Below the pieces are notes generated by a model. It worked only from the letters and a program-made list of their open reading frames with translations, did not search any database and was not told the DNA's origin. A DNA stretch of 64,000 nt from Branchiostoma floridae (taxonomy: Eukaryota; Chordata; Leptocardii; Amphioxiformes; Branchiostomatidae), in contig NC_049983.1 of NCBI RefSeq assembly GCF_000003815.2, positions 21,015,739-21,079,738 of the forward strand, in the 5' to 3' direction. Within the stretch, counting starts at the first letter, position 1. Each line of letters opens with the position of its first letter. Both the position numbers and the translations under genes were made by a program. This document shows positions 752-62,506 of the stretch, piece by piece.

Positions 752-1063
752 GGGCGAAGCCCCCCCCCCCCCCCCGGAAGCTCTTGCATTTTAGACTATT
801 GAGAAGGCTTCTTTTATCAGTTTTTTTAAGGGCCATACCTACGATAATCGTAGCAGGCACTTACTTCTCTTCAGCAGTTTGACTTTAAAATATTTCGGGT
901 CAAAGCTTCAAAGACAACTAAAACCTCATAAACAACAAACTTTACTTAGCTCAACAGTATACAAAAATATTGTACGGGTTGCCATCCTTAGTTGAAGCGC
1001 TTATTTATAGCGCTAGTATCTTCGCTGCGCCGTTAGCCGCCGTGCGACTTTTGTTGACGGTCT
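752..1063. repeat. Dispersed repeat, copy 2 of a direct duplication
   Basis: Diverged direct copy of 29-310, preceded by a G/C-rich lead with C and G homopolymer tracts (about 690-775). The 441 bases between the copies (311-751) hold no recognisable gene. Short open frames here on both strands are a by-product of the homopolymer-rich sequence. Confidence 0.7.
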
Positions 1064-2513: not shown

Positions 2514-2517
2514 TTAA

Positions 2518-3480: not shown

Positions 3481-3484
3481 TTAA

Positions 3485-6153: not shown

Positions 6154-6295
6154 CTGTATACGTAACATGCCTTTACCAAGGGCAAAACCAAACCAGCGAT
6201 ACATGCGCTATACCAGGTCTCGAGCTGTATACGTAACATGCCTTTACCAAGGGCAAAACCAAACCAGCGATACATGCGCTATACCAGGTCTCGAG
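6154..6295. repeat. Perfect 71-bp tandem duplication (2 copies)
   Basis: Copies at 6154-6224 and 6225-6295 are identical by eye, each starting ctgtatacgtaacatgcc and ending ccaggtctcgag. The unit length is not a multiple of three, so the frame spanning it is not a coding repeat. Perfect identity implies a very recent duplication or an assembly artefact. Confidence 0.95.
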
Positions 6296-26783: not shown

Positions 26784-28805
26784 CTATTTGAGTGAGAAAA
26801 GTTTCATACGTCCATTTTTACTGTTCATGTCGCACACCACCATCTTGCCGTCCTGCATGAGTGAGAGTCCCCAGGGGTAGTGCAGTCCGTCCTCCCGGGT
26901 CAGCAGGTGCCTGACGAACAGCCCGTCCCGGTCAAACTGAGACACACGGTGGTTGTGCGAGTCGCACACGATGATGTTGTCGTCTTCATCCACGTACAGT
27001 CCCATGGGATGGTCCAGCTGCCCGTCCCCCGACCCGTGCTTCCCGAACTTGAACACGATCCCGTACTCCGGGTCGAAGACTTTGACGTTGTTGTTGCGCA
27101 TGTCGCTGACGATGACGTGGTTGCGGCTATCGGTGGCGACCCGGAGGATGTAGCCGAAGTCCCGATCTCCAAACTCGCACACGCTCGTCCCGTTCGGCAG
27201 CAGGACGAGGACCTGCCAGCCGACGGTCACCACGATCCGTCCGAGCCCGTCCACAGCGATCCCTCCTCCCACCGTGTCCTTCTCCGCGACGTTCTTCACG
27301 TGGATAACCCGCTTACCCGAACCCTCGCTGTTCATGACGTGAACCTTGGGTCCGTCTCCGGTCACTAACAGTTCGCCATTGTCTAATGCCGTCACACACT
27401 CCGGTTGGAACCCAAGGTCGATCTTACGCTTGAACCCTCCCTCCTTGTCGACCACCTGTAGACACTTGTTGCGGTAGTCAGTAGCCACGATGTCTTGTCC
27501 ACCTGTGATGGCGATGCACAAGGGCGAGTCAAACTCACCTTCTGCCTTCCCCGCCTTCCCTACAGCTTTGTACAGCTTGACTTCCTTGCAGTGACTGAGT
27601 GAAGCGTTAGCCTTAATCTGCAACCCAGCGACAGGAGGTATCGCGACTTCCACGTCTTTCTGTTTCAAATCGCCCATGAGTTTGGATATCTCTTCCTGTA
27701 TATTAAGAGAGGCTGGGTTGTAAGTTAGCTCTTTGAAACTTTTGGTCGAGGACAGGTTTGTACGCACGCTGTTGTCTGACCGTTTCATGAGCTCTTCTTT
27801 TACCCCCTCTGCAACAGTCATAAGCTCTACCGGGTTTCCATTCACCAACAGGTGCCCTACAAACTGGATGGTGTTCTTTGCCTGGGTCAGACTGGTATCG
27901 GCAGTGTTGATGGCAGACGCCAGCTGTTTCTGTCGTGCCTCGTGGAGAGAGCGAAGCTGGACGAGTCGCTGGTCTTTCAGCTTCTGGACAGCGACGATAA
28001 TGGCGTCCGCTTGCCTTTCGATGTCTCTCGTCATCTTCTTTACCTCTGACGCCCACTTTTCTCCACTTCCTCGCAGCTCGTCCAGCCACATGTCCTGTAG
28101 GATGGCGCCTCTTTTGACGCCCCCCAGAAGCCCTTCCATAGCACCTATCTCCTTCCCGGCCGCTTCCTCCACCTCCACATACTTGTGTTCCTTGTGCGAA
28201 GTCACCACGCAGTGTAGACATATCACCTGGCGGCACGTCTCGCAGTAGAACTTGTGAACCTCCTTGTGAATCGAGCACTTTGAAGGCTCGCCCGTTCTCG
28301 CCGACACTAAGACTTTGCCCGACTTCAAATCCTTCAGTGTGACCACCCGGTGTGATCGTGTAGGCTTAGGGCGACAATGGCTGGTGGCACAGTTCTGACA
28401 CAAGTAGTCTGGACAGTCTACACAGTACGATGTAGCGTGTACACCTGCCTCGCACGTCGAACAGCGAGCCTCTCCCATCCCCTCCTGTGCCGAGTCGGAC
28501 GTTTGCTTCATAACGTCACTCAGCTTTGTAACTAGGAAGTTGTCTTTCAGCGCGCGGACGCCATCTTTGGGAAGGGCTGCGTCCTGTCGGCAGGTGGGAC
28601 AGGAAAGTTTCCCCGGCCCGTCCGTAGATTTGGCCACCGGCAGCTTCTCCAAACACCCCTGGCAGAAGGTGTGCAGGCACGGCAGGATCTTAGGTCGATC
28701 GTAGTCCTCCAGGCATATCTGACAGACGAGAAACTCTTCGGTGATATGGGACAGAATGTTGGACGCCATCCTGTCCGCGTTACATATGATATGACCAGGT
28801 TCCAT
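26784..28805 (-). CDS. TRIM-NHL RING E3 ubiquitin ligase, intronless
   Basis: Predicted cytoplasmic RING-type E3 ligase with an NHL beta-propeller for RNA or protein binding. The 673-residue frame has a RING at about 28-72 (CQIC, PCLHTFCQGC, CPTC), B-box 1 at about 114-153, B-box 2 at about 177-212 (CSIHKEVHKFYCETC), a coiled-coil region at about 215-340 and about six NHL repeats from about 415 to the end (for example DHPMGLYVDEDDNIIVCDSH). No filamin domain lies between coiled coil and NHL, unlike TRIM2/3/71. The first in-frame ATG is at 28805, but the second (28769) begins MASNILSHITEEF, which resembles usual TRIM starts and may be the true one. The whole gene is one exon and more G/C-rich than its surroundings, which suggests either an ancient intronless TRIM expansion or a retrogene. 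Confidence 0.92.
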   Translation of the reverse strand: MEPGHIICNADRMASNILSHITEEFLVCQICLEDYDRPKILPCLHTFCQGCLEKLPVAKSTDGPGKLSCPTCRQDAALPKDGVRALKDNFLVTKLSDVMKQTSDSAQEGMGEARCSTCEAGVHATSYCVDCPDYLCQNCATSHCRPKPTRSHRVVTLKDLKSGKVLVSARTGEPSKCSIHKEVHKFYCETCRQVICLHCVVTSHKEHKYVEVEEAAGKEIGAMEGLLGGVKRGAILQDMWLDELRGSGEKWASEVKKMTRDIERQADAIIVAVQKLKDQRLVQLRSLHEARQKQLASAINTADTSLTQAKNTIQFVGHLLVNGNPVELMTVAEGVKEELMKRSDNSVRTNLSSTKSFKELTYNPASLNIQEEISKLMGDLKQKDVEVAIPPVAGLQIKANASLSHCKEVKLYKAVGKAGKAEGEFDSPLCIAITGGQDIVATDYRNKCLQVVDKEGGFKRKIDLGFQPECVTALDNGELLVTGDGPKVHVMNSEGSGKRVIHVKNVAEKDTVGGGIAVDGLGRIVVTVGWQVLVLLPNGTSVCEFGDRDFGYILRVATDSRNHVIVSDMRNNNVKVFDPEYGIVFKFGKHGSGDGQLDHPMGLYVDEDDNIIVCDSHNHRVSQFDRDGLFVRHLLTREDGLHYPWGLSLMQDGKMVVCDMNSKNGRMKLFSLK

Positions 28806-29349
28806 TATTCATCGAGGTCAAAAGTCACCGCGAGCGGAATTCCGTGAAGTGAACGGGTGTGAGTTACAGAAAGGGTTAGTGTTTGTTGTCACTCACGTGA
28901 AAATGCCAAGTGTCACTACAAACAGTCTACCGGTCATGTCCGACACGTAAACACTTTAAAACCAATTTTTCACTCTACAAAATGAAGATTTTATCTACAA
29001 CAGTCTCGCTTCAAGTAATCCCAACGCGAAAAATAACCACAACTAAGCCCAAAGGATTTTAAGCCTGTCGTATACAGCCCAGCGGAAATAGCGCAGAGGA
29101 AAGTTAACACCTGTATGACGTAACATACAAGTACTGGTGTTCAACTCCGTCGGTTGTGGCGTTGGTGAAACCAGAGGAAAAGCAGAAAACAACATATGTG
29201 TGTCTGTAGGGTGTCTGTAGGGCGGGTTTGAAGACTAGTAATTAGCATTAATAATTACAGGCTAGGCCTGGGGGTTTGTTTATATCTGTCCCATGGTAAC
29301 TAGTAATTGGGGTTAGTTCTGTTGGGCTATGCTAACCCTAGTTACTAGA
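28806..29349. other. TRIM 5' flank
   Basis: Upstream region of the minus-strand TRIM gene. No gene is seen. A small imperfect inverted repeat (ctagtaattggggttag against ctaaccctagttactag) lies at about 29300-29350. Confidence 0.4.
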
Positions 29350-30920: not shown

Positions 30921-30986
30921 ATAGTATCCTATTTGTCCTGAATTAGTCCTCGGCCCCTCCGTTATGAAGTGATGCGGAAATCGTCT
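30921..30986. repeat. 66-bp direct repeat, left copy (putative target duplication)
   Basis: Identical by eye to 31195-31260, beginning atagtatcctatttgtcctg and ending gcggaaatcgtct. The two copies flank a truncated LINE tail, so they are most simply a long target-site duplication. Confidence 0.85.
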
Positions 30987-31194
30987 GGAGCCTAAAGTCA
31001 CCTATGCGCTGAGACGACCGCATTAAGCGGGCGTCCAAAAACCGCGCAAAGCAGAAAACTGTCGAGGGCTGGGCGGGTGGGTCGCTTCAGGCTCCAGACG
31101 TAGCCGGAGGGCCACAGGAGGACTGACAGTTTGACATCTCTTAGCATTGTGGGGTCAAAGGGCAACTTTCGGGACCAATGACTAATCAGGTTAA
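30987..31194 (+). mobile_element. 5'-truncated LINE tail, related to the LINE at 34.1-41.0 kb
   Basis: The last 83 bases (31112-31194, starting ccacaggaggactgacag and ending aatcaggttaa) are identical by eye to 40908-40990, the 3' end of the nearly complete LINE. Upstream the two copies diverge, apart from a gcgtccaaaa-acc match. A 15-base segment, cgcaaagcagaaaac, is present here in inverted orientation relative to 40855-40869. The insert is bracketed by a 66-bp exact direct repeat (30921-30986 and 31195-31260). Confidence 0.8.
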
Positions 31195-31260
31195 ATAGTA
31201 TCCTATTTGTCCTGAATTAGTCCTCGGCCCCTCCGTTATGAAGTGATGCGGAAATCGTCT
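31195..31260. repeat. 66-bp direct repeat, right copy (putative target duplication)
   Basis: Exact partner of 30921-30986, lying directly after the LINE 3' end. Confidence 0.85.
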
Positions 31261-31808
31261 TCCGCCTTTGCCCTCTCTGACTTTGGAGCCTTTCCTCTCC
31301 TGTCCCCTAATACCTCCCTACAATGATACTCCCCTATGGTATCTTCTCGCTCCTTTCCTCTCCCTGTCTACTCTTTCAAATCACTCCCTGTCTTTATCCC
31401 TCTCTCATCTTCCCATCCTTATCTTCGCTTTATCACCTTTCCTCTCCCCTTACTCATCTGATTCCTTTCTTACTCCTCTCGACTTGCCCCCCTCACTCAT
31501 CTTGCTCTTCTTTGAACTTTTATCACTAACGTTACATAAACCACACATTCCTAAGTATTCACTCTCGTTTTCCCAACACTTATCAAACCCACTCCAAATT
31601 TACACAGCGCTTCAAACATGACGGAAAACAGACATAACTGAACCGTGCTCTGTACTGCATCTGGTAAGTCATCACTGTGCGACACAAAATCATTTATACA
31701 CAGACGCACATCAGGCTGCTCACTTCTGTCCTCAATGCCCGTTTCCCGCGCACACCCTTTAGCCAGGCCTCAGTCCGGCGACGATACTTACGCACTTCCG
31801 CCTAGCAA
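31261..31808. other. Pyrimidine-rich intergenic stretch
   Basis: A C/T-rich plus strand at about 31261-31500 generates long but unconvincing open frames rich in S, L and P. No gene is called. Confidence 0.5.
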
Positions 31809-31811
31809 ATC

Positions 31812-32210
31812 ATCCAGCCTCCCGCGGAAACCCATCGCACTGGATTAAGGCACAAAATGTCATGGAAGAACGTACATGACTTCCCGAATCATTCAGCCTT
31901 CCGCGGAACCCCTTCGCGCTGAATGATGTCACAGCAAATCACGAAAAAATAAACGAGCACAATTTTTCGGATCGTCCAGCCTTCCGCGGAAACCCTTCGC
32001 GCTGGATAACGTCACACCGTACTGAAAATACGACTGCACACTTTTCGGGTCATTCAGCTTACTGCGGAACCCCGTCGCACTGAATGATAACTTGCTGTGC
32101 TATAAAAAAGGCGTCAAACCAAAGACGTTCTTGGTCAGACCAATCTCAAAACAGGGTTACTCGATTAGTTCCTAACCATCCAGCATCCCGCGGCACCCCA
32201 TCGCACTGGA
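31812..32210. repeat. Array of five 30-nt hairpin motifs with compensatory stem changes
   Basis: Five motifs begin at about 31814, 31893, 31976, 32054 and 32180 (steps of 79, 83, 78 and 126). Each is 30 bases from CCAG or TCAG to CTGG or CTGA. The middle is conserved as GC-two to four variable bases-GCGG-A/C-AA/ACCCC-NTCGC-A/G. The outer stem is CCAG with CTGG in motifs 1, 3 and 5 and TCAG with CTGA in motifs 2 and 4, so a base pair is preserved by a paired change. Motif 2 has a perfect 10-bp stem (atcattcagc with gctgaatgat). Spacers are A-rich and partly similar between units. The steps are not multiples of three, so this is not a protein repeat. Function and family are unknown to me. Confidence 0.8.
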
Positions 32211-34114
32211 AAACGACATGTCAAAATCCATCAAGAAAAATAGGGGAAAAAATGACTTACAGTCCGTTCCTTGAGCTGTCGGCGGGGTTAGCTGAACTGA
32301 CCGGCAGGGGCTGGGCGGTGTCGGGGACCGGAGCGCCAGTCGACCCTGATCCTCTGACCGCTGTCCCTTGCAGTACTGTGCGCCCTGAAGCCGCCTCCTC
32401 GGGTTCCCTGGTATTTATTATTTCACAACTTTATTCAGTACAAAGAAAACATGGTTCACAACATAAAACATCACAGCCTAACAGGTTCTCTGGCGCGTCT
32501 TGACCCCTCTCTGCTGCTAAAGCTTGTGCAGGCCACCAACGGGTCCTATCGGGCCGCACATCTGGCGAGGTTGATGATGGCGTGTCCCGGAGCTGGGTGG
32601 TGGTGTGTCCCTCGCATCCCTGTTGTTGGAGGGGGAGAGCGTTAGACCTGTATGAACAACACGTGAACCATGAGATAGTGGGGAGGGACGGGCGCCCGGC
32701 AACAGGTCCGGTCCCAGACAGACAAGTCTAAAACAAACGCATCTTCCACACCGCCCAGCCCCCCCACATGCGAGCGAGCCGCGTTACGTGGTGTAGGACT
32801 GGGTCACGCGCGCCCACAACATCCAAACGCGCCTTACAGGTACACACTCATACACATGCAAATCAAACTCCAAACTAAAGCAAAATATTAGCGGAAACCC
32901 CATCCACAGCCTCGACGTTCAATCTAGGAATGCAAAAGAAAATGCTACCTTGCCAAAACAAAAAAGACACCCAAATCGTACCGATTGCAGCCTTCGAAGC
33001 TCAGAGGGGTTGGCTGAACGCTACGCCAAGCTCTCTTAGCGGGGTGACGTAGGTCTGATCCTGAAAACAAAGAACCAGGGGGGGGGGGAAGAGGGGGGTC
33101 CCATCTTGCCTCCTGGAACATGCCCGTCGTCGTTCTCTGTTCCTGCCTGAAATATTCACGAAAATCAAAAAATGACATAAAAATCTGGAAACTCTCGTTC
33201 TGCTCCACAGCTCAGCATTAAAAGCCAACACCCACAGCTTTCCTTCGCAGAGGATCACTATGGATACAAAAACATGACGAAACAAAAGAAATTCGAGAGA
33301 ACCACCATCTGCCATGTGGGCACCAACTATCTGCTTGGAGTAGCTGTCGGACCCTGCTAAAACATTCACAAGGCACGAAAACACACAAGAATCAATCAGC
33401 TTCACGCGGAACAAAACGCCAGCCTGAACGAAAAAGGCGTCCTAAACTCGTCCCGGCCTAAAAATGGAAGAAAGGCTTGAAACTGTAACGAAAAATGGCG
33501 TAAATCAGTCACCCCTGCACTCCGGAACATTCCTCCCTCAAAAATCAAGTATTCATATGCAAAAACAACAGACAACGCAAGGATTAAAATGATATAGCTG
33601 GCAGCCGGAATTCCAAGCCGTGCTAGAAAGGAAACACAAACAGCGAGAACCATAATCAGTAAAGGCCGCTCCGAACCTAACGAAGCACACACAGGAGTAA
33701 CAAGAAATCTTTTTAAAAAAGCTGTGCCTTGCCGCGTATTTTATGTTATTTTGGTAAGTTAGACTAGATTCTACGCTTAAAAATCCCGAGTTCCACATGT
33801 CGCCCCCCCCTCATTATCATAATTTATGTCAGATGAATTATTGGCACATTAAACAGGTTTTGTAAAACTTTTTGACCCACAATGAATATGCATTATTTTT
33901 TATTACAAACTAAGTTCCTTCTGATGCAATTTGTGATATATATTTATATAAACATGGTGAGTTAAAGCGTAGATTTATTACGCTGGACCACATACAGTAA
34001 CATGCGTCTAGAAGAGCGTTTTAATACTCGCCTGGAATGTACCATTGTCTAACTAAGCCATGAAACTCGGCACGTTGATCACTTCATTGTGACAATGTGT
34101 TTTTGCCCGTATGT
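32211..34114. other. Intergenic, probable transposon-derived sequence
   Basis: Minus-strand open frames of 81 to 137 codons overlap each other in different frames (32945-33798) and show no recognisable domain. Poly-G runs occur near 33079-33100. The sequence could be the 5' part of the LINE that follows or an unrelated repeat; I cannot tell. Confidence 0.35.
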
Positions 34115-34479
34115 GGTTCGAAAGTCGGTCGAACTCTGGGCTTTGATGAGTTGATCTATTGGTTTGAAAGTCGGTTGAACTCTGGGCTTATTGAGTTGAT
34201 CTAATGGTTTGCAAGTCGGTTGAACTCTGGGCTTTAATGAGTTGATCTAAAACTGCAGAATCTAGTTGCAGCATTGTGGTTTACTTCTGCCCCCCGCCCA
34301 TTGCGTTGACTGGGCTGAGAGGGGCAGAGGTGGTTCATCCATTGTGGGGCGTTCGCCCTGTTTCGCATCTGCAAAATCTAGTTGCAGCATTGTAGTTTCT
34401 GCTGTCCCCCGCCCATTATATAGACTGGGCTGAGAGGGGGCAGAGGTCATCCATTGTAGGACGCTGCTCTGTTTTGCAT
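34115..34479 (+). repeat. LINE 5' tandem repeats (two unit types)
   Basis: Three units of about 46 bp occupy 34115-34251 (core aagtcggttgaactctgggc then gagttgatcta). Two units of 116 and 111 bp follow at 34253-34368 and 34369-34479 (core aatctagttgcagcattgt, then gactgggctgagagggg). Tandem monomers at LINE 5' ends often act as internal promoters, which is the likely role here by analogy. Confidence 0.8.
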
Positions 34480-34798
34480 TTCAAAGGTTGAGACAGACAG
34501 TGGTGTCCATTTTGTCTGAGTGGAAATTTCCACTTGGGCTTGCTCCTTGGCAAATTTAGCAATTTAGTTTGAGAACCAGTAGCGCCCGGAGAGGCTGCCT
34601 AGTTTATTGGTTCGTACTTGGTTGTTCTTTAAGCGTGTCAGTTTGGTTACACGCCTTCAGTTACGTTACGTTTTCAACCCTTGCTGCCCGTGGAGGCTGT
34701 CTGATTTACAGGTAGTGTTTTTCAGGGTCTCTGGCAGCTCTGTCTGCTCATATTTTGGTTCCTTTTTAGTTTTATTTGGTTCTAGTTAAAGCTGCATT

Positions 34799-36757
34799 AT
34801 GAAGCGTCCTCTTTCAATAAAAGTTGCCGTGTACCGTGATCGGTTAACGTATGAACAAGTGTTTACTTTGCTGAGCGAGGTTTCGGCTCCCATGAGCAGC
34901 ATTCAGGCTGTTCAGTCTCTGGGACCAAACTCATTCGACGTGTCATTTTCCTCGGTACACGAGCGTACATTGTATGCGGGGAAACTGTCTGGTTTAGACG
35001 CCGTGGATGTGTCATCTTACGCGGCGGCGGAGATAATTGTCACGGCCACAAGAATTCCGTATGAGCTCGATGACAACTATGTCAGGAACTGGTTAAATCA
35101 ATACTGTGCCGTCATCACGTCCCGTATGGTAACATACCGGGACAGACCGACCATCAAAAATGGGAACCGGCAATACAAAGTAGTTTTAAAGCCGGGATGC
35201 AATATCCCATCAGCATGGAAAATGTATGACGGGAGGATGGTTTTCTTTAGGTATGTGGGGCAGCCCCGTACCTGCTTGAGATGCAACCAGGAAGGGCATG
35301 AGTCGGCAAATTGTGCAGTAACATTTTGCAACAAATGCCAGTCCATTGGGCATTTGGCCATGGATTGTACCAACGATGTTGTGTGCCTCAGTTGCAGGGC
35401 AGAGGGACATACGGCTCGCCGTTGTCCCCTGTCCTTCGCAAACAGGATTAAGATGGGAGCCAGTTGGGCTAAGAGCCAAGAGCTCCCGGCAGGTGTGAGT
35501 CAGGTCCGTGAACACCATGATGGAGGGGTTCCTCAGGCTGCAAATAAGCCTGATCGGTCGGAACTGGCCCATGTTTCTGACGCAGAGTCTGGTGTATCTG
35601 ATCCTGTTTCGCCTCCAGGTCACCCTGGCAGTGTGGACCCGGGTACTTCTTCGGCTGTGAAGTCGGATGTTTCTTCTCCGGTCGCGGAGTCGGAGGCTTC
35701 TCCTCCGGTCGCGGTGGTTGAGCCGTCTGAGGACGTGCTGTCGGAGGCCGCTCCTTCGCTGACCAAGTTTTCTCCGGTCGCGGTGGTTGAGCCGTCTGAG
35801 GACTTGCTGTCGGGGGCCGCTCCTTCTCTGACCAAGTTTTCTCCGGTCGCGGTGGTTGAGCCGTCTGAGGACGTGCTGTCGGAGGCCGCTCCTTCTCTGG
35901 CCAAGCCTGGCCTTTCTTCCTCTTCTAGCGAGCAGGTACCCTCAACATCTGCTGCTCCGGTACCGGCCCCTCGCGCCCGGTCCCAGAGAAGGAGGCGTAA
36001 GGCGGCCAGTCCAATCCGACCTGTTACTCGTCGGTACATGTGTCAGGGTTGTGAGTTGGATTACACAATCACTCTGGAGGTGGTGTCTTGTCATCAGTGC
36101 AAGGCAGACATAACTCCAGAATCTGCTCTCCTTGCTTTCTGTGAGGGCCCAGTTTGTCAAAGCGATAATCGCCTCTTTCTTTGTCAGAGCTGCCATGATG
36201 GCAACTCTGATATTGCTGACAAAGATTCCAGGAAAAGGTGTAGGGGTGATTCCAGTGAGGGATCTGCCTCTGCAAAGACTTTGTCGAAAGGAAAAAAGAT
36301 TCGTAAGGAGCCGGATTCCGACTCCAGTCTTGTTATCGAGGAGTTTCCCTCGGAGAGTCTTCGTTCTGTGGACGGTAACGAGTCTGACTCTACTGTTGGC
36401 TCCAGAAGCCTCATCATTGATGAGGATACTTCGGATGCCTCTCAGGCTCCAAGTCCCGATTTGGTAGCAAAGGCGAGAGCCATTGTCATCTCCTCTGACT
36501 TGTACAAGAATAAGGCTGTCTTTGTGTGCAACCAGTTTATTTCTCATGGTTGTGACGAACTCTTGCATAGTTTTAGGTCTTTGAAATCCCACCTTGCAAA
36601 GGCGCATGGCATCTCCGGGGACGTTGTGCCTTGTAAGGTTGGTAATTGTTCGAGGTTTTTTAAAACCACGATGTTATGTCTCAAGCACCTCTACAATGTC
36701 CACCCCCAATTTGTTAACCGAATTGGTGTGGAAGGAATTGATGATCTGTACCACTAA
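34799..36757 (+). CDS. LINE ORF1: CCHC-knuckle nucleic-acid-binding protein with C-terminal zinc fingers
   Basis: Predicted RNA-binding partner of the LINE reverse transcriptase, 652 residues. The N-terminal 150 residues look like the RRM-like region seen in Tx1-type ORF1 and ZCCHC3 proteins, ending RYVGQPRTC. Three CCHC knuckles follow at about 159-172, 177-190 and 196-209 (CNQEGHESANC, CQSIGHLAMDC, CRAEGHTARRC). Next come a Ser/Pro/Glu-rich linker with three 23-residue repeats (about 302-370), a basic patch (RARSQRRRRKA), a cysteine-rich segment at about 416-465 (CQGC, CHQC, CQSC) and two C2H2-like fingers near the end (for example CSRFF then HLYNVH). ORF2 starts 14 bases after the stop in another frame. 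Confidence 0.85.
   Translation: MKRPLSIKVAVYRDRLTYEQVFTLLSEVSAPMSSIQAVQSLGPNSFDVSFSSVHERTLYAGKLSGLDAVDVSSYAAAEIIVTATRIPYELDDNYVRNWLNQYCAVITSRMVTYRDRPTIKNGNRQYKVVLKPGCNIPSAWKMYDGRMVFFRYVGQPRTCLRCNQEGHESANCAVTFCNKCQSIGHLAMDCTNDVVCLSCRAEGHTARRCPLSFANRIKMGASWAKSQELPAGVSQVREHHDGGVPQAANKPDRSELAHVSDAESGVSDPVSPPGHPGSVDPGTSSAVKSDVSSPVAESEASPPVAVVEPSEDVLSEAAPSLTKFSPVAVVEPSEDLLSGAAPSLTKFSPVAVVEPSEDVLSEAAPSLAKPGLSSSSSEQVPSTSAAPVPAPRARSQRRRRKAASPIRPVTRRYMCQGCELDYTITLEVVSCHQCKADITPESALLAFCEGPVCQSDNRLFLCQSCHDGNSDIADKDSRKRCRGDSSEGSASAKTLSKGKKIRKEPDSDSSLVIEEFPSESLRSVDGNESDSTVGSRSLIIDEDTSDASQAPSPDLVAKARAIVISSDLYKNKAVFVCNQFISHGCDELLHSFRSLKSHLAKAHGISGDVVPCKVGNCSRFFKTTMLCLKHLYNVHPQFVNRIGVEGIDDLYH
35702..35908 (+). 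repeat. 69-bp minisatellite inside LINE ORF1 (3 units)
   Basis: Units begin near 35702, 35771 and 35840 with an exact 69-base step, each encoding SPVAVVEPSEDVLSEAAPSL or a close variant followed by TK or AK. The step keeps the frame and the units are nearly identical, so the array expanded recently within the coding sequence. Confidence 0.9.
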
Positions 36758-36771
36758 TTCCTCACATTCCG

Positions 36772-39700
36772 ATGTTGTTTGACATTCCTTCTCTATGTAG
36801 CCTCATGGTTCTTATTGCTACACTCAATGTCTGTGGGCTCCGTAGTCCGCAGAAGAGGAGGCAGGTTTTCGGCTTTTGCCGTCAACATAAATTTGACGTT
36901 GTTTGCCTCCAAGAGTGCCATGTTTCGTCAACATCTGAAGCGGTGCTCTGGGAGAAGGAATGGGGAGGCCAAGCGTTTTGGGCATTGGGCTCCTCCCAAT
37001 CTAGAGGTGTGGGTATTTTACTCTCTCCATCTTTCAATTTTGATGTGGTTAAAAAGTCTTGTGACGATAGTGGGCGTGTTGTCTGTGTCGTCTTGTCCGA
37101 TGGTGTGCGTAATTTCAAAGTTTGTAACATGTATGCTCCTAACATTTCTGCGGAGCGTACTGGATTTTTTAAAAATTTGTATAAGTTTCTGTCGGGGGCT
37201 GAGCCCCTTATTTTGTGCGGTGATTTTAACTGCGTTGAAGATGTTGATATTGATAAGAGGGGCGGGAACCCGGCGCATGGTAGTGGCGGTTCCACCATTT
37301 TAAAAGACATTTGCGCCGATTTTAATGTGCATGACTCTTGGAGACATGAGAATCCTTCTAAAAAGGTCTTCACTTGGAGACAGCCGACCAAAGGTATTGC
37401 CTGTCGGCTGGACCGATTTTATTCGTCTAAATGCCTCGTCGTTTCAAACTACTGTTTTTTACCCGCATATTTTACAGACCATGACTGTGTGTCCTTGTCA
37501 ATTTTACCGGATGTGAAGAAGAAGCCTGGCTTGTGGAAATGTAATGTATCGATTTTAAAAAGAGACAAAGTTTTAAATGATTTTAAACTCGCTTTTAACA
37601 ATTGGAAGACTTTGAAACCAGGTTTTCCTTCTTTGCGAGCCTGGTGGGATGATGTAAAGGCTAGAACTCGCTCTCTCCTGATCAGAATTTCTTGTGAACT
37701 GGCTAGGGAGAGACGGGAGTCCATGTTTACCTTGAATAATGAACTTGTCGATCTCACCAACAAGATGAACGACGGGGCCTCTTCGGCGGACATCTTGCGT
37801 AGGTATGAATGTACTAAGTCTTCCTTGTCCGAGTTGTCCGCTGAGGAGGCTCGCGGTGCTTTTGTTCGGTCCAGAGTCAAGCAATTTGTCGAGGGGGAAA
37901 AATGTACCTCGTATTTTGTAAGCCAGGCCTCTTCCCGAAGTAGGCAGCGACGCATTTCTTCGGTCAGAGATTCTACTGGACGTATTGTCCAAGATGACGA
38001 GGAGATTTTAGATGTTTTTAAGCTATTTTATGAAGACCTTTTTAGTGCTGAGCCTATTGATAAGTGTGAGGCGAATAACCTTTGTAACAATTTAGAAGGG
38101 TCTTTGGATCCTGATGAAGTCTCTTCATTAGAAGGTCCTCTTTCATTGGATGAGCTTTGGGCTGCATTGCGCAGTATGGAGAATAATAAGTCCCCTGGCA
38201 GTGACGGTCTCCCGAAGGAATTTTATGTCGCTTTCTGGGACGTCATTGCCGGGGATCTCCTCTCAGTTTTTGAGGAAGTTTTTTCGTCTGGCGAGCTCTC
38301 TCAGAGCCAGAGTTTTGGTGTTATTACTCTCCTTCCAAAAAAAGGGGACCCTCTGGACCCGAAGAACCGTCGCCCAATCTCTTTGTTAAATTGCGATTAT
38401 AAGATTCTTGCAAAGGTTCTTAACAATAGGCTTAAGATGGTTGCCGCCTCGGTCATCAGTCCTGACCAGACATGCGGTATACCAGGCCGGTCGATACAAT
38501 GTAACCTACTTTTGATGAGAGATATCGTTACATATGTTAATATGAATAACTTTGACTGTGCGATCATTTCTCTGGATCAGGCCAAGGCCTTTGATAGAGT
38601 GAATATTGATTTTCTTCACTTGACTCTTGCGAAGATGGGTTTTGGCCCGGTTTTTCGCAAATGGGTTGCTATATTGTACCACAACATTACCAGTGCTGTT
38701 TCCGTCAATGGGTCGCTATCATCTTCTTTTTCTCTCTCAAGAGGTGTTCGGCAGGGGTGCCCTATGTCACCCCTGCTGTACGCAATTTCTTTGGAGCCAT
38801 TTGCCGCTACAGTAAGGGCCGACGCTGCGATTCACGGCCTCAGGTTGCCTGGTGGCCGTGAAGTTAAGATCTCGCAGTATGCGGACGATAACTCGGCTAT
38901 TGTTACAACCGATGAGTCGATCCGCCGGCTCTTTGCTGTTATTGACATGTATAACAGAGGTTCCGGGTCTCTTTTAAATCTTGACAAATGTATGGGTCTC
39001 TGGCTAGGTAGTTGGAGGAAAAGACTCGATTGTCCGAAGAATTTTAAATGGACATCTGTATCCATACGTTTATTGGGAGGTACTTTTGGAAGTGTTAATA
39101 TGCCTTTAGTCAACTGGAGGGAGAGGCAAGCTAAGTTTGAAGCGGTTCTGCGAAAGTGGGACAGCTTCTCTTTATCCTTCGCTGGCAAGGTTGTCGTCGT
39201 TAATAACCTTGCTTTCTCTACTTTGTGGTATATTGCTCCTGTATTTTCTCCTCCCGAGTCAGTCGTCAAGGACATTACGAGAGCCGTCTTTAAGTTTTTC
39301 TGGAGTTCTCGTGCAGAAATGGTCTCTAGACAGACAGTTATGCTACCTTTGGACAAAGGTGGATGGGATCTCATTGATTTTGGAGTGAAGGCCAATTGTT
39401 TTTATTGTCGGCCGTTTACCAATATTCTTGACCGGCCGGATCTTCCATGGGTCCAGTTGGCAAATATTGGCTGGGTTTTTTTGCCCGTCGTTTTGAACCA
39501 TCGTCGTGGTCTAACAGTTNNNNNNNNNNNNNNNNNNNNNNNNNNNNNNNNNNNNNNNNNNNNNNNNNNNNNNNNNNNNNNNNNNNNNNNNNNNNNNNNN
39601 NNNNNNNNNNNNNNNNNNNNNNNNNNNNNNNNNNNNNNNNNNNNNNNNNNNNNNNNNNNNNNNNNNNNNNNNNNNNNNNNNNNNNNNNNNNNNNNNNNNN

Positions 39701-40265
39701 NNNNNNNNNNNNNNNNNNNNNNNNNNNNNNNNNNNNNNNNNNNNNNNNNNNNNNNNNNNNNNNNNNNNNNNNNNNNNNNNNNNNNNNNNNNNNNNNNNNN
39801 NNNNNNNNNNNNNNNNNNNNNNNNNNNNNNNNNNNNNNNNNNNNNNNNNNNNNNNNNNNNNNNNNNNNNNNNNNNNNNNNNNNNNNNNNNNNNNNNNNNN
39901 NNNNNNNNNNNNNNNNNNNNNNNNNNNNNNNNNNNNNNNNNNNNNNNNNNNNNNNNNNNNNNNNNNNNNNNCGTGCGGTCGCTCTCTATGGTGTTATGTC
40001 GTCTACCCTGAAGAAGTGTAAGAGAGATGTCTGCACCTACATTTTGGCCGTCGCTCGGTCTAAGATTTGGTGGTCCAGGTGTCAGGCTCTCTTTGACAAT
40101 AATTTCGTATTTCACATTGAGCTGGTGTCTCTAATCAAGGAGGCTCTTAGGTTTAAACTCAAGATGGAGTTTGTTCGACTTGGTTCTGAAAGTTTCTTGG
40201 CTGAGTGGTGCCAATCTGTTAGATGGGCAAGTGTGCGGACGGGAGTTTTGGTTCTACGTTTTTAG
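36772..40265 (+). CDS. LINE ORF2: AP endonuclease and reverse transcriptase (interrupted by a gap)
   Basis: Catalyses target-site nicking and target-primed reverse transcription. The endonuclease spans about residues 14-240: IATLNVCGLRS, CLQECH, LILCGDFN (about 150), ACRLDRFY and FTDHDCV. The reverse transcriptase includes NNKSPGSDGLPKEFY, PKNRRPISLLNCDYKILAK, the fingers-palm RGVRQGCPMSPLLYA and the catalytic YADD at about 703. The downstream AGKVVVVNNLAFSTLWYIAPV segment is typical of the L1/Tx1 clade. A run of 452 N (39520-39971) separates the body from a C-terminal part ending at 40265, which is read in a different frame; the recorded gap length is therefore probably not exact. The usual start is uncertain: ATG at 36772 is the first in frame. 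Confidence 0.88.
39520..39971. other. Assembly gap (452 N)
   Basis: N run inside LINE ORF2; the reading frame changes across it, so its true length differs from 452 modulo three or the copy carries an indel. Confidence 0.99.
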
Positions 40266-41184
40266 AAGTCCTTGTCGTAGTAGTCTTTGTTTGGTGCTAC
40301 AGTCTGTCTTTGCTATTGGTGGATTGTCTGTTAGATGTTCAGTGTGTGTGCTCAGTCCTTCACTATGGTGTTCCCCTTCTACTCTCTAGTCCTCTTTATA
40401 ATTTCCAGTTTGCTTTGATGTGTCGTTTCTTGGCAGAAGGTTGGGCGGGTGCAAGTCTGCCTCGGGTGGAATGGCACATCATTTTTCTTTGTTTCCATTC
40501 ATGAGTTGTTTCTTCTTATATTATGATGGTTTTCAGTTTGGTCTCTGTCTGTATTACTAAAACTGTTTGTATACCCAAAATAACAAAGGGCCTTTGGAAG
40601 GGGCTTTGGAAGGGCTGGGTTAAAAGGTCCGTCCATTGATCCATGGAAAAAAGCTGGCGTAAAGCCTTGCCTGGCGGCAAGGCAAAAATACGAGAGAAAC
40701 ACACGAAAAAGTACCAACCGACCGCGGAACCAAATCAAACCTTCCGTGGAAAGAACGTGTCCTCCCGAGGGTAATCAAAACGTGACCGCAGAGGCCTCGA
40801 GCTGTACTAGCGTGCTTCCCTGCGGCGTCCAAAACCAACATCACCGCTGGGCAGGTTTTCTGCTTTGCGTGGTGAGCAGAAGTGGAGGGGTCCGTCGTGG
40901 ACGAGGACCACAGGAGGACTGACAGTTTGACATCTCTTAGCATTGTGGGGTCAAAGGGCAACTTTCGGGACCAATGACTAATCAGGTTAAATAGAATGTA
41001 GTTCTTAGCACCATTGTACTTTTCTTTATCATACGTGTTGTACTTGCAATTAACCCTCGAGCATGAACTTGCAATAAACATTGTTATTATTATTGTATCA
41101 ATATATTACCTGGTACCGCGGATCTACCCACATATATGTTGGTCTTACGAATCTACTTTTTCACTCTTATCAAGGGAAACCCTG

Positions 41185-43132
41185 TTATAATTTTGGTGGT
41201 CTTAGTACGGTAGGAGGGAGAGAACAACTTCGTGATAGTTCAGGAAAAGTGATTTTCTTGAATTCCTCGTATTGCTTAGCGCTGATGTAACCTTCTCTGT
41301 AGAAATGAGCCAGGTAGTCCTCCTTGTTACACCTGATCTTTAGTTTACAATAGTTACAGTAACGGTTCAACTCCCTTTCTACTTCATTTCGCGTACCCTG
41401 CTGCAGTTCTCTGCTCCTGATACCTAAAGCCTTGGTCAGCCTTTCTGCCTGTAATGTAAAATGGCACCTCAGCCCCCTCCTTGCCAGCAAGCAGAACTCT
41501 CTATCTACGGTAAAGCCCGGTCCCCACTGCGTGTCGCTAACTTCAAGTGTAGCCCCGTACCGAGAACACGGCTGACTCTTCTGTATGAGAGCGGTGCAGT
41601 GGTCTCGCATTTTCTGGTTCACCTGTTGGAAGAACGCGACTTCCTCCCGGAAGCTGTTGCCTGTCTCGCTCACCTTCTGCCAGAAAGTCTTGTTGAAATG
41701 GTCATAGAGGGCGTAGTCCACGTAATTCCACTCCTCGTGTCTGTCTTTGTCTTCCCCCTGGATTTCAACATGCTTGTACGAGTACCGCTTGGAGTTGACG
41801 CTGTAATAGAGAATGTCCTTCATGGACCAACACATCATTCGTCGTAGGAGAACCAAGGATTCATCGAAATATTCCATGATCATAACAAACGGGAAGTCTT
41901 CTTGGATTTTCCGCACAAACGCTTGAGCCATTGCCTTTCTCGCCTTGCTGCTTTTTAGTGATTGAAGTTTTTGATTGTCCTTCAGCAGAAAGCCTAGATC
42001 GGCGGCCATGGAGTTCTGTGTGAAGCACAGCGGTTCGTGTGAGCCATGTCCACAGATCGGGTCGTACTTGGCTGGTTCCTGCAGGAACATTAGAATAGAG
42101 TCTATTCTAGTCGTTGGGATGCCAAATTTCTTCCTCAGCTGGTAATGGTTCCACACGGACTTGAAGTGAGTTAGTGGATTCCTTAAGATGGTCAAGAAGA
42201 CGGTGTCTTCGGGAAAATACTCCTTGAAGACGTTTCTCTCGAAGACCGCATGGTGTACCCAGATGTCGTAGGTTTTGTTGGGAGGACGGCCTATGACTGT
42301 GTTCTGGTTAAGATTGTACGGATAGGCTAAACTCGGAGCAAAGTTTCTTGGAATGAGGAAAGTTAGATTTTTGTTGTAGCCATAACGGTTCAGGATGTTC
42401 TTGACGGTGTCCCCTCCCACCTTGTGATTCTTCAACAGCGCAATCCGCTTCTTCTCCGTGCACCGGGGGTAAGGCTGGTGGTCGGCGACATTGATGGGTG
42501 ACAAGCTTGGGATTGGCTGACTCTCCGGACGCACCTTTTTGTGGATAGAATGTTTTCTAGACGATCTGTGCCCGTGGCTGAAATAATGATGAAATAAACA
42601 GAAAACGTTTTACTTACGCAAGAGTTAAAAAAAACTTGCTCACGCACGTCAATCGCAATGTTAGGTTCGCAAAGGTCAAGTTATGATTATGAGCTGTGAA
42701 AAATATACATGGCTTTACTACTGCACTTGATTGGCGAGTATTCAACAAGTGCAACCCTACTTCTGCTGTGAAAAGGGCAAACTACCTACGTCACGGGTTG
42801 GTTCATACCGATCTGACCTTTGTCCTCAATATGGAGTTTGACTTGTCAAGTCGTCACTGTCTGTCGTCCGACCGGTTTCGTCCAGTAACTGCAGCTTAAC
42901 AAGCCGTGCACTCTATGTACCACATTTACTGCATAAGTAAACTACATGTAACTCAGAATCACCCTTTATCACCTAAATACCCATATCGTGCTCAATATCA
43001 CTGTTCACAAATTTTGGTACATGCAATTACTTACCTTTTGGGCTGACTCAATATGACCAGGTACAGAGATATACACATGACCATGAAGATCATGAGAAAG
43101 GAGAAAAATTTCAGGTCTCTTTTGCGCGCCAT
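41185..43132 (-). CDS. Galactose-3-O-sulfotransferase-family enzyme, paralog 1
   Basis: Golgi type II membrane enzyme expected to move sulfate from PAPS to the 3-OH of galactose on glycolipids or glycans. Exon 1 is 43035-43132 (MARKRDLK, then a membrane segment FFSFLMIFMVMCISLYLVIL). Exon 2 is 41185-42577. The intron borders are AG and GT with phase 2, and together they give 496 residues. The 5'-phosphosulfate-binding motif KNHKVGGDT is at about 82-90 and the 3'-phosphate-binding motif LRNPLTHFKS at about 164-173. The length is slightly above the usual 420-490 of vertebrate GAL3ST proteins. An upstream acceptor (ttttaacag) before the ATG and a donor-like site near 43783 suggest a noncoding first exon. 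Substrate cannot be assigned from sequence alone. Confidence 0.88.
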
Positions 43133-45168: not shown

Positions 45169-46884
45169 TTAAAGGTTACATTTCCTGACGAAGTTTGGAT
45201 ACTCCCTATTCACGATACTACTATAGGTGGCGCTGTTGACATACCCGTCATAGTGAAGGTGCGACAGGTGGTCCAATGATCCACAGTCTCTCAACTTGCA
45301 GTTGACGCAATTTTCTAATATCACATCTATTGCCTTCACTGTTGTTCGTCCTTTTCTCGATTTTGCAGCCTTTTTGAAAGATTCCAAGTTGACTTCTGAA
45401 TACAGTGTAATGTTGCGGCGGTTCAGTTTCAGTGCCTTTGCTGCCCTTTCAGATTCAAGCAACAGATAACAGCGAAGACTTCTCTTTGCCAGCATACAGA
45501 AGTTCCTATCTACCGTAAAACCTGGACCCCACCTTGACTGCTTAAAAGTTAAGGTAGAGATAGAGCATGGTTTGCTTGCCTTGTAATTATCACATAGTTC
45601 TTTCATTTGCTCATTAACATGCTTAAAATACCTGACTTCTCCCCAGAAGTCGTTACCTGCTGAATTTATCCTTCTCCAAAAGCTTTGATTGAATTGATCA
45701 TAGAGCGCATAGTCCACATGGCTCCATTCCCTGTGATTCTGATGGAGTTTGGGAGGGATTTGTTTCTCTTTACTTACATAGCTACGAGTGTTGGTCTTGT
45801 AATAGAGAATGTCTTTCAAAGACCAACACATCAGCCGCTTGAGCAGAACTAGCGACTCATCGAAGTACTCCGTCATCATGACCAAATCAAAATCGTCTTT
45901 GATGATTTTCAGGAATTTCTGTGTAATTATCTCTCTCTCGTCCGTGTCACATCCGGGACCTACTCGCTTGTTTGTAGATGCCGGGAATCCAAGGTCAGTG
46001 GAAATGGCATTCTGGGTAAGACAGTAGGGAACATGGCGGCCATGGCCACACTTTTTGTCATATTCCCCTGGGTTTGCCAAAAATGTTAGAATCGGGTCTT
46101 CTCCGTTCTCTTCGATATGGAACTTTTTCTGTAGTTTGTAGTAGTTCCAGGTGGACTTGAGATGACTTAGGGGTTCACGAATAATAGTCAGGTATACTGT
46201 ATCCTTTGGGAGGATTTCTCTGTACCGTGCCCTTTCGTACACGGTGTGGTACACCAGCATGTCAAAGCTGTGGTTCTGAGGCGGAGGCAGATAGGACTTA
46301 GGGTGCAGCTGGTACGGATACATCTTGCTGACCACCAGGGAGCGCGGCAGGACGAAGTTGAGTTTCCTGACATACCCGAAGCGATCGAAGATTCTCTTTA
46401 CGGTGTCACCTCCTACTTTGTGGTTCTTAGCAAAAGCAAGACGTCTTCTCTCCGTACACGTCGGCCGCGGTCTTGATGACGAAGATGGCCGCGATGACGT
46501 AGGCGGTTGTGATGACGCAATTACCTGTGATGACGTTGGGGACCGTGATTGGTTGAAGGGTGAAGATGGGTTTTCTCTGACCATGCCCATTAGCCGTCTT
46601 GCCAGTGAATGATTTCGGTCGTGATGTCTATAAAATAAAAGTCATTGAAACAAGTAGCGTCATTGCAAAGTTAGCAAAACTTATCATTGAAGCATTTCCT
46701 TATCGTGATTTGATGCCATCTTGTGATATCTTAATGTACAAGTTTCAAGCGAGCGGTTGAAGAATAGCAATCGGCGACAATAAGCAGTTTCTTACCTTGT
46801 AAACAGGGTTCGCGAGTAAAGCAGTGTGCTGACAGCAGTTACAATCAGAAGGACAGCAAAGGTTCTGCGACTGTGACCCAACAT
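45169..46884 (-). CDS. Galactose-3-O-sulfotransferase-family enzyme, paralog 2
   Basis: Same predicted Golgi PAPS-dependent activity as its neighbours. Exon 1, 46796-46884, encodes MLGHSRR and a membrane anchor (TFAVLLIVTAVSTLLY). Exon 2, 45169-46627, carries the stem and catalytic domain. The joint is phase 2 with good AG and GT signals, giving 515 residues. The stem is unusually rich in Ser, Pro and Arg. PAPS motifs are KNHKVGGDT (about 97-105) and IREPLSHLKS. The family signatures CGHGRHVPYCLTQN and SRWGPGFTVDRNFC are present. It is closer to paralog 3 than to paralog 1 by eye: IIREPLSHLKS and CGHGRHVPYCLTQN are shared by 2 and 3 but differ in 1. Confidence 0.88.
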
Positions 46885-48861: not shown

Positions 48862-50634
48862 TTACGGAAGTGTTAGGTTCTTCATGTTACATCGTTCGGC
48901 AATTTTTTGGTTGATTCTTCTCATGACGGTCCGATAGCTGTCGTTGCTGATATGCCCATCCTTGTAGAAATGGGTCAGGTAGTCGAACGGTCTACAGTTA
49001 GCCAGGTTACAGTACAGACAGTGCCGTCCCACCACGTCTTTTCCACTCAGTTTGTGTACCTTTACATCATACATTGCATCTTTTCTGCTTTCCGTTTCGG
49101 TCCACCTTTTCAATTGTGATATAACTGCAGGCCTAGGTCCCCCACCCCCATACAAGTGGATGTTGCTATGGTTTAGTTTCAGCGCTTTTGCTGCTCGCTC
49201 AGCTTGGAGGGAATAATAACAATCAAGGTCTCTTTTCGCCAGTAAACAGAAATCACGGTCTATTGTAAATCCCGGACTCCATCTTGTATCATTCACGACC
49301 ACAGTTGTTGGTGAGACTGGGCACGGGTTCGGACGTGACAGGCTGTCGCACAGTTCTCTCATTTGATGATTGACGCGTCTGAAATATCTCACCTCTCCTA
49401 AAAAGTCATTGCCGGCTGCATGTACCCTCCTCCAGAAGGTTTGGTTGAAGTGGTGATAGAGAGCATAGTCCACATAGCTCCATTCATTATGGATCTGTCT
49501 GACGTCTGGTGGGATGCGCGTCCTCTTGGTAGCATAATGGCGCACATTGGCCTTGTAGTAGAGTATGTCCTGTAAGGTCCAACACATCAGCCGCTTCAGC
49601 AGCACCAGCGACTCATCGAAGTACTCCGTGATCATCACCAGGTGAAAGTCGTCGTGGATCTTCCGCAAAAACGTCTGAGAAATCACTTCTCTTTCTTCCC
49701 TGTCACAGCCCAGAGTAACGCGCTTGTTGTTTTGTGCAGGAAATCCAAGGTCGACCGACATGGAATTCTGGGTGAGACAGTAGGGAACATGGCGGCCGTG
49801 CCCACAACTTTTGTCATATTTTTCTGGATTATTGAGAAACGTCAAGATCGCATGTTCGCCATTTGATCTGATAAGAAATCTATTCTGGAGCCCGTAGTAA
49901 TTCCATATGGACTTGAGGTGACTTAAGGGTTCGCGGATGATGGTAAGGTAGACAGTGTCCTTGGGGAGGACTTGTCGGAAACGTGTTCTGTTGTACACGG
50001 TGTGGTACACCAGCATGTCGAAGGTCTGGTTCGGAGGTACTGGTAAGTAGAATTCTGGGTAAAGACTGTATGGATACGTCATACTAGCCACGAAGGGGTG
50101 AGGGAGTAAAAAGTTGAGTTTCCTGGTGTAGCCATAACGGTTGAGAATGTTCTTCACAGTGTCTCCTCCTACTTTGTGGTTCTTAACGAAAGCAACACGC
50201 CTTCTCTCTTTGCATTTTGGCCACCTAATGGATGACGTGGCACCAGATGATTGGCTGTTGTCCACAGCTCCCATCAGACGGCGCGGATAGCTTTGACCAG
50301 TGCTATTGTAGAAATGGATTTATCAGAATGAATGTTTGATACTGAAAGTCATACGAACCTACTTCAAATGTAGTCAGTAGATAGAAATGTCTTACACCAT
50401 TGTTCAGAGTCCTTGATCAATTGAAGATATATAATGGTTGCTCTCTAATGATTGATAAATTGAGAGTTACGGTTACTATTCATTTGCGACGTTTCACATA
50501 AAAAAGTCAGAGAATAAATTCTTACACACTGAAAGTTTTTCTTACCCTTTAAATAGGCCGTGGGAACAGATGATCGTACCAACTGTGGTGATTACAGCGC
50601 ATGCGGCGAAGGCCTGGTGGCAGTATCTCAACAT
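48862..50634 (-). CDS. Galactose-3-O-sulfotransferase-family enzyme, paralog 3
   Basis: Third member of the tandem set. Exon 1, 50546-50634, gives MLRYCHQ plus a hydrophobic anchor (AFAACAVITTVGTIIC). Exon 2, 48862-50302, holds the catalytic domain. The intron is phase 2, exon 1 is 89 bases exactly as in paralog 2, and the total is 509 residues. PAPS motifs are KNHKVGGDT (about 70-78) and IIREPLSHLKS; CGHGRHVPYCLTQN and RWSPGFTIDRDFC also match paralog 2. A possible 3' acceptor (ttcctgtag) just before the ATG suggests an upstream noncoding exon, and a TGACGTCA octamer lies at 50659-50666. Confidence 0.88.
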
Positions 50635-53978: not shown

Positions 53979-54157
53979 TGTCACCGAAGCGCAGACCGAC
54001 GGCTAAACGGTTTAAACAACATCAAACAACATTGATATCGTTATAATTTATAATAAGCATGATCGCGGACCGACTAACTTCGCTTGGAGGCGGGGCCATT
54101 AGACTACTAACAACCACGGAGAGTGTGTGTTACACAGGCTAAATACTGCTCAGAAAC

Positions 54158-54430
54158 TACAGCCGCGTGGCGCGTTGGTGCACCCGATCCCTCGATCTCG
54201 GAAGTTAAGCAACGCGCGGTCCGGACAGTACTTGGATGGGAGTCCCCCAACCAAGGACGTCCGGATTGCTGTAGCCTCACCAAGCTTTCCACGAAATCGT
54301 CTTCCGGGAGGGACGAAAAACGGGGGTCCCGTGCTCGAGGAGGTGCCTCGACCACGTTAAACAGCCTCATTACCCACACTTTGGTTACCTACTGGCTGTA
54401 AAATACGCCCGATATTATATTATATTATAT
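54158..54430 (+). mobile_element. 5S-rRNA-derived SINE
   Basis: The first ~120 bases (54158-54277) look like 5S rRNA: cccgat, gatctcggaag-ttaagc (A box about 54201-54215), gtacttggatgggag (box C about 54228-54242) and a final tgctgtagcct. The middle and 5' part have diverged. An unrelated body follows (aagctttccacg through gaggtgcctcgaccacgtta), then a short ATATT simple repeat at about 54411-54429. A Pol III-promoter head plus body plus simple tail defines a 5S-type (SINE3) element. I do not call it a functional 5S gene. Confidence 0.8.
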
Positions 54431-62338: not shown

Positions 62339-62506
62339 TACCGGTGTGACAGAGATCTCGCCCCCCCGTGATCTCGCCCCCCCGGGGGCGAAATCACTAG
62401 CGATCTCGCCCCCCCGGGGCGAAATCACTAGCGATCTCGCCCTCCCCGGCTAGTGATCTCGCCCCCCTACCTCGCCCCCCTTTAGCGATTTCGCCCCCCC
62501 CCCCCA
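62339..62506. repeat. C-tract array GATCTCGCCCCCC, left
   Basis: At least six units of (g)atctcgccccccc or its reverse complement (gggggcgaaatc), spaced by ctagcg/ctagtg. It starts with taccggtgtgacag, which is exactly inverted at 63484-63497. It ends in a 14-C run at about 62493-62506. Confidence 0.85.

Follow-up and report, generated by a model that had tools for sequence, protein, structure and literature searches.

A tandem array of covarying hairpins in a mobile element of amphioxus with split direct repeats

The hairpin array and its surroundings

The window analysed here is a 64,000-nucleotide stretch of the Branchiostoma floridae genome (NC_049983.1, positions 21,015,739 to 21,079,738). 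On its minus strand lie a 674-aa ORF (26784-28808) that by eye is RING/B-box/NHL-like, of the TRIM-NHL type, and three similar tandem ORFs (41185-42609, 45169-46641 and 48862-50319) that by eye are sulfotransferase-like. A 5S rRNA match on the plus strand (54155-54277, 44.8 bits, cut-off 38) was the only one above threshold when the whole window was scanned with 4227 Rfam families, and it may be a gene, a relic or a 5S-derived repeat. Repeats of the GATCTCGCCCCCCCG type are present at 62354-62449 and 63450-63484, apparently in opposite orientation. Positions 30925-40994 are occupied by a mobile element, hereafter the hairpin element, which carries an array of five hairpins and has the plus-strand order A1 - x - B1A2 - array - body - B2 (Table 1). 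Its length is about 3.1 kb without a LINE-type element that has inserted into it.

Table 1. Window coordinates of the hairpin element, its repeats and its hairpins (a slash within a sequence marks a junction)
Feature	Position	Strand	Remark
A1 repeat, 5′ end of element	30925-30986 (identical stretch 30921-30986)	+	100% identical to A2, no mismatch
x, between A1 and B1: large hairpin, stem about 16 bp	30982-31099	+	fold z -5.8 on plus, -5.1 on minus strand
B1 repeat, internal copy	31107-31198	+	one mismatch to B2
A2 repeat	31195-31260	+	B1/A2 junction AAATAG/TATCC at 31198/31199
Hairpin 1	31813-31844	+	
Hairpin 2, 10-bp outer stem	31892-31923	+	
Hairpin 3	31975-32006	+	
Hairpin 4	32053-32084	+	
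Hairpin 5	32179-32210	+	
Conserved noncoding domain	32285-32790	+	arms 32307-32321/32748-32762 and 32319-32332/32707-32720
LINE-type element, insertion foreign to the hairpin element	33701-40683	+	Pfam; absent from sister copies L031-L033
B2 repeat, 3′ end of element	40903-40994	+	ends in GGTTAAATAG

A preliminary description of this DNA had pointed out five motifs, and these were confirmed at 31813-32210, as the pattern CAGCNTNCYGCGGNAMCCCNTCGCRCTG matched five times without gaps in the window (starts at 31815, 31894, 31977, 32055 and 32181) and gave no match in 100 dinucleotide shuffles of it. In the 513-Mb assembly (431 contigs), with up to three mismatches allowed, 314 matches were found, compared to one for the reversed pattern. 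The hairpin consists of a 5-bp outer stem, a 6/1 internal loop, a 3-bp inner stem and a 9-nt loop, GAAMCCCNT. Both the alternation of C:G and T:A in the outer stem and the 10-bp stem of the second motif were as described. Start-to-start steps were 79, 83, 78 and 126 nt, so the reported spacing of about 80 nt is valid for four motifs, and fails for the fifth, 126 nt on. The steps are indeed not multiples of three and also vary between copies; protein coding of the array was rejected on these steps and on copy-to-copy differences. That the hairpin belongs to no named family holds as far as Rfam goes: in the scan of the whole window no family exceeded its gathering threshold in the array, and in 31700-32260 nothing appeared at E ≤ 10 except a 16-nt match adjoining the array (E 9.5).

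A mobile element with split direct repeats

Searching the genome with a 451-bp query round the array gave at least 41 matches including the window, at 75-100% identity (62 candidates, 40 scored). Alignments started at (A)G/TATCCTATTTGTCCTG in 28 of 30 loci, one of which, L018, starts at the second copy (A2). The 3′ end is GGTTAAATAG, and another subfamily ends in AATAAATAG. Five intact copies measured 3,077-3,194 bp, and two copies, L032 and L033, are 99% identical, which indicates recent movement of the element. Tandem satellites with units of 194, about 67 and 56 bp enclose or adjoin the copies L031, L033 and L034. A search with the array pattern added a further relative, L082 and L083, with nine and six hairpin matches, some of them degenerate; visual inspection of one strand of L082 revealed no gene-like ORF, and L083 is an incomplete stretch. 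Of 20 further loci, 13 had hairpins and seven (L062, L064-L069) did not, L062 being shortened and the other six matching none of the references compared.

The element appears to be noncoding. A single stop-to-stop ORF of at least 130 aa is present in L036, an intact copy; it has 134 aa and crosses the array. The longest ORF in the window copy (33001-33441), the one element ORF scanned, matched no Pfam family. Judged by these two copies, the element encodes no gag, RT/RNase H or YR. Coding in 32440-32800 was rejected, since the variable columns showed no codon period (30/24/23). The conserved domain that overlaps this region has long-range complementary arms and a fold z of only -1.8 on the plus and 0.1 on the minus strand, and by energy it is not clearly structured. 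Hairpin x had fold z values of -5.8 on the plus and -5.1 on the minus strand, and three of its four full 25-nt bins were 80-88% invariant among five copies, the fourth 36%. The inserted LINE-type element has, according to Pfam, a zinc-knuckle ORF1 and an endonuclease-RT ORF2; at its 3′ end a short run of A comes after a GC-rich palindrome.

The repeats of the hairpin element are split direct repeats, A1 ... B1A2 ... B2. A1 and A2 were identical within each of six copies (window, L031, L032, L033, L035 and L036), even though L035 and L036 differ by at least 20% from the remaining copies. B1 and B2 were 96-99% identical in the same six, most differences falling at the inner edge, and only 86% identical in the older copy L034. 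With internal and terminal junctions sorted by hand, the internal B1/A2 junction read AATAG/TATCC in 27 of 30 copies, whereas the 5′ terminal junction varied with the target, with 19 different pentamers in 41 copies, a constant G and a preference for A-rich sequence. For one copy, L031, which is inserted in the 194-bp satellite, the empty site GGACAATAGGGTGG was found in a neighbouring unit. Comparison of the target (..GGACAATAG^GGTGG..) with the element (ATAG/TATCC..TTAAATAG) showed that the two are joined without gain or loss of bases save for a shared AATAG core, and thus without target duplication at this one site. The lack of duplication and the shared core are a signature of tyrosine-recombinase (YR) elements, and we consider the hairpin element very probably to be a mobile element of YR type.

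Partial copies were also found. Among ten loci with a single terminus (L070-L079), six (L070, L072, L074, L075, L076 and L079) contain a complete solo A1-x-B1 with both flanks; L073 extends to the B end across a gap, L071 and L077 are without B end, and L078 is no clean solo. One body-only insertion, L018, has foreign sequence directly before A2 and is without A1-x-B1. Both forms are expected if the B/A junctions are recombination sites.

Three other assignments were tried and rejected. DIRS1-like elements have inverted terminal repeats and an internal complementary region, and the repeats here are direct, the terminal inversion being imperfect and only about 30 nt long. Helentrons and Helitrons insert at a fixed T-T or A-T site, and the bases flanking the 3′ end of the hairpin element vary. 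The tandem arrangement of Penelope-like elements does not apply, because self-comparison showed that x, which precedes B1, is not repeated before B2. The preliminary description had proposed a transposon terminus as one setting of the hairpins. The transposon part of that suggestion stands, but the array is not at the terminus of a DNA transposon; the internal A2 precedes it by about 0.55 kb, and the ends of the element, its LINE-type insertion and its gene-bearing relatives had been overlooked.

In Ngaro, PAT and VIPER elements, split direct repeats have the published form A1-[ORFs]-B1A2B2 (PMC6681497, PMC9210276, PMC8547959, PMC4157794). The Ngaro superfamily, YR retrotransposons of the order DIRS, shares with the hairpin element the split direct repeats, the solo A-B copies and the absence of target duplication (one site for the hairpin element), and unlike Ngaro the latter has no observed coding capacity. 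A further difference is the position of B1A2, which in Ngaro is downstream of YR (PMC4157794, PMC9210276, PMC8547959) and here is near the 5′ end. An amphioxus Ngaro-like element with a split-repeat arrangement unlike others in the genome was noted earlier (PMC2632668). The satellite insertion of L031 resembles integration of DIRS1-like elements, for which a circular intermediate, a short identical core and no duplication are described (PMC3266345). The nearest parallels found in print are SIRE, a short VIPER relative of Trypanosoma cruzi built of the A2-B2 repeat region (PMC6681497), and the isolated AB repeats of Ngaro in Cafeteria burkhardae (PMC8547959). The solo A1-x-B1 copies are of the same kind as SIRE, whereas the 3.1 kb element differs from it in its long conserved noncoding body and its hairpin array; the Cafeteria repeats are likewise solo A-B insertions, attributed to recombination of the 5′ with the 3′ repeats, and the amphioxus solo carries the x hairpin in addition. 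A Repbase entry for the hairpin element may exist.

Covariation and folding of the hairpins

A first covariation model, R1, was built from 11 hairpins, and the set was then enlarged to 92 unique hairpins from 54 loci; 47 loci had four or more hairpins, the copy number in these arrays ranging from 4 to 9. Pair 0:29 was C:G in 73 of the 92 hairpins, T:A in 15 and otherwise in 4. Watson-Crick double changes on the same branch of one tree were found at 0:29, 1:28, 11:23 and 12:22 in all three reconstructions, and at -1:30 in two of the three. The other 771 column pairs had 16-18 such changes in total, and a control with slid partners had 0-1. By our own arithmetic, double changes in at least four of nine pairs would occur by chance in about 3 of 100,000 cases. 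Compensating changes thus occur in at least four of the nine proposed pairs and in both stems, and the former estimate, in essence a single pair that clearly covaries, fell short. The double changes of the inner stem derive from diverged copies, part of which are degenerate.

Of the 703 column pairs, 0:29 came out on top under a home-made tree-based null (p 3e-4 to 5.5e-4); multiplied by 703 it was nonsignificant (0.15 in the smaller and 0.2-0.4 in the larger set), and it was significant when multiplied by the nine proposed pairs only. Pairs 1:28 and 12:22 reached p values of about 0.04-0.05, and the remaining six were nonsignificant. Pairs 2:27, 3:26 and 10:24 are almost invariant and say little on covariation, and standard pairing was found in 66 of the 92 hairpins at the outermost pair, -2:31, and in 79 at -1:30. 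In three shuffle tests the observed covariation score was reached by none of 500 shuffles each time, while the number of covarying pairs was reached by 166, 265 and 252 of 500.

Single hairpins folded moderately better than shuffles, with z from -0.7 to -3.6 on the plus and from +0.2 to -2.9 on the minus strand. For the whole array, the plus strand did better than the minus strand relative to shuffles in all five copies of the hairpin element tested (window array, z = -2.9 versus -0.9); in L082 the strand preference was weak, with a plus-strand z of only -0.36. It is only this shuffle-relative comparison that favours the plus strand for the window array, since its raw folding energy is lower on the minus strand (-143.5 versus -115.6), and wobble pairs pick no strand (14 fit plus, 8 fit minus). 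Between the window and L036, the most distant copy compared, 145 of 160 bases were retained in hairpin cores, compared to 160 of 259 in spacers. The contrast was small in nearer copies, with hairpin and spacer retention of 0.94 and 0.87 in L034 and of 0.92 and 0.84 in L035. In all likelihood the hairpin is conserved as a folded single strand. Of the tandem structured RNA array suggested beforehand, the structure is supported by covariation in both stems and by the plus-strand fold in five of five copies, and the folded strand may be RNA or DNA.

Gene-bearing relatives and a possible role in trans-mobilisation

Two of the four YR loci examined, the joined stretch L039+L037 and L048, have the layout of the hairpin element plus genes, in the order A1-[GDSL-type ORF]-B1A2-leader-gag-RT-YR-B2. 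The repeats lie at 567-860, 1886-2179, 2179-2472 and 8025-8318 of L039+L037 and at 1395-1638, 2640-2909, 2908-3151 and 8741-9010 of L048 (reverse complement), so that in both relatives, as in the hairpin element, the internal B1A2 is near the 5′ end and not downstream of YR. In L039+L037, a GDSL-type hydrolase ORF between A1 and B1 is followed by a gag-like ORF, recognised by eye from its Cys/His motifs, and by RT and YR. Phage_integrase was above the Pfam cut-off in both families; L039 alone passed it for Lipase_GDSL_2 and L048 alone for RVT_1, and an RNase H match (RVT_3) was below it in both. With RT, YR and GDSL-type hydrolase matches, some below cut-off, and a gag-like ORF, these amphioxus relatives are like Ngaro. 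No sequence similarity was found between the hairpin element and either L039+L037 or L048, and the link to these families therefore rests on layout. The other two loci showed no split repeats, L038 within the 7 kb and L049 in the stretch examined. In L049 (C10:5808000-5817500) a 344-aa YR ORF is bordered by a 204-bp satellite whose units share about 98-99% identity. Among eight more loci near YR matches of 331-333 aa, five align over the L039+L037-family leader and are too alike to count as independent evidence, and the stretches of L040, L041 and L046 do not reach the leader. Tandem repeats of about 100 nt occur between YR and B2 in both families (L039+L037, 7527-8025; L048, reverse complement, 7846-8633).

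Hairpins also occur in the leaders of these relatives. The L039 leader, from A2 to gag, has four tandem copies of about CCTGTTAGACCYGCTAGGAGGGTTAACRCAGG, 67-68 nt apart, each folding into a stem of 5-6 bp, an internal loop, a 5-bp stem and a 7-nt loop; both strands of this array beat shuffles. The L048 leader has about five 65-nt units of two small hairpins each, and its array folds better on the antisense strand. L039+L037 has in addition eight dispersed GGTRNGYTRCC tips on the sense strand and none on the other (joined 940-7370), against a chance expectation of 0.06 and a largest count of 2 in 300 first-order random sequences, for a motif that was defined only after copies had been seen. Flanking stems of at least five pairs, differing in sequence, were present at six of the eight tips, compared to 11% of random places; the other two tips have four pairs. 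The motif is absent from L048 and from the hairpin element. Some of the tips contain a GGTAAGT-like 5′ splice consensus.

A helper carrying both genes and the ends or the array of the hairpin element was not seen among the matches listed, which comprised 51 YR matches (100 candidates scored), 100 of 111 and 100 of 162 terminus matches, and 100 of 314 hairpins. The YR match nearest to a terminus among those listed, compared by eye, was 24 kb away. The helper may be rare, extinct, or divergent at the ends searched, and we consider it rather likely to be of Ngaro type.

The position of the array, the layout of the element and the two gene-bearing families make a leader RNA element used in trans the most likely reading of the array. 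We tentatively propose that a noncoding, trans-mobilised Ngaro-like retroelement carries the hairpins in its 5′ leader as sense-strand RNA elements, which are bound by the Gag or RT of a helper, a reading that could well be right and is held with less than even confidence. A family-specific protein such as Gag or RT fits best with hairpins that are repeated, family-specific and constant at the tip. According to this proposal, the element would be transcribed from the plus strand, several tandem hairpins would be bound at once by helper Gag or RT, and the RNA of the element would thereby be packaged or chosen as template. The simplest role of the hairpins, packaging or template recognition, is put forward with somewhat more reserve. 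The cDNA would be formed into a circle, with the B/A junction AAATAG/TATCC as recombination site, and the helper YR would insert it at an AAWAG-like site without target duplication. We infer the RNA stage from the homogenisation of the repeats and from the layout.

Other readings were weighed against trans-mobilisation by leader RNA. A DNA transposon or satellite-like element moved by YR as DNA, with no RNA stage, would agree with the lack of an identified RT partner and with the terminal inverted repeats, which are imperfect and short (about 30 nt); it appears improbable, given that split direct repeats are a described mark of YR retrotransposons (PMC6681497, PMC9210276) and that two elements of identical layout have RT matches. 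The hairpins themselves might be no more than passive tandem duplications of a GC-rich unit with unselected structure, as the tandem units, their variable copy number at 47 loci, the degenerate copies in L082 and the slight advantage of hairpins over spacers in nearer copies could suggest. The cores of the distant L036, conserved far above its spacers, and the restoration of pairing by double changes make this very improbable.

Two further readings accept the structure and give it another function. As DNA, the hairpins could be inverted repeats for a recombinase or transcription factor, or cruciforms in circle formation; movement of the element is by YR-type recombination, its hairpins have inverted repeats as outer arms, the core TTCCGCGGAA is palindromic in some copies, and both the antisense fold of the L048 array and the raw energy of the window array point the same way. 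We regard this as unlikely, since stem bases switch pairwise at four or more of the nine pairs, many positions in the loops vary as little as those of the stems (six, 5, 7, 14, 16, 20 and 25, do vary), the array is about 0.6 kb away from the recombination junction, and the fold relative to shuffles favours the plus strand in all five copies. Slightly more credit, although still little, is given to RNA elements for nuclear export, dimerisation, stability or translation control: hairpins at the equivalent leader site of two gene-bearing families would fit any leader function, but a noncoding element offers no obvious target for translation control, and the hairpin differences between families would suit a family-specific protein better than a host export factor.

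RNA viruses have dispersed packaging-signal hairpins, many of them short, with a constant tip and variable stems. The amphioxus arrays resemble these, with the difference that here the carrier is a transposon and the hairpins are candidate protein sites. To our knowledge, the way in which YR retrotransposons select their RNA and package it is not established. Literature searches on Ngaro and DIRS with amphioxus, nonautonomous elements, packaging and hairpins, with most subscription journals outside their scope, returned no paper whose title or opening abstract lines describe such an array, and a search for tyrosine recombinase retrotransposons with packaging signals found no paper.

An array that covaries, together with split repeats and a junction that are kept while spacers drift, points to cis elements for movement. 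It is conceivable, if rather doubtful at present, that Ngaro-like retrotransposons of amphioxus select their own RNA by repeated family-specific hairpins and that noncoding parasites persist by keeping such arrays. Such selection would, on an equally guarded view, work through tandem leader hairpins, in one family also through dispersed constant tips on changing stems, and be akin to the multi-site packaging signals of viruses. The hairpin array thus provides a concrete RNA for tests against the Gag, RT and YR of the gene-bearing relatives.
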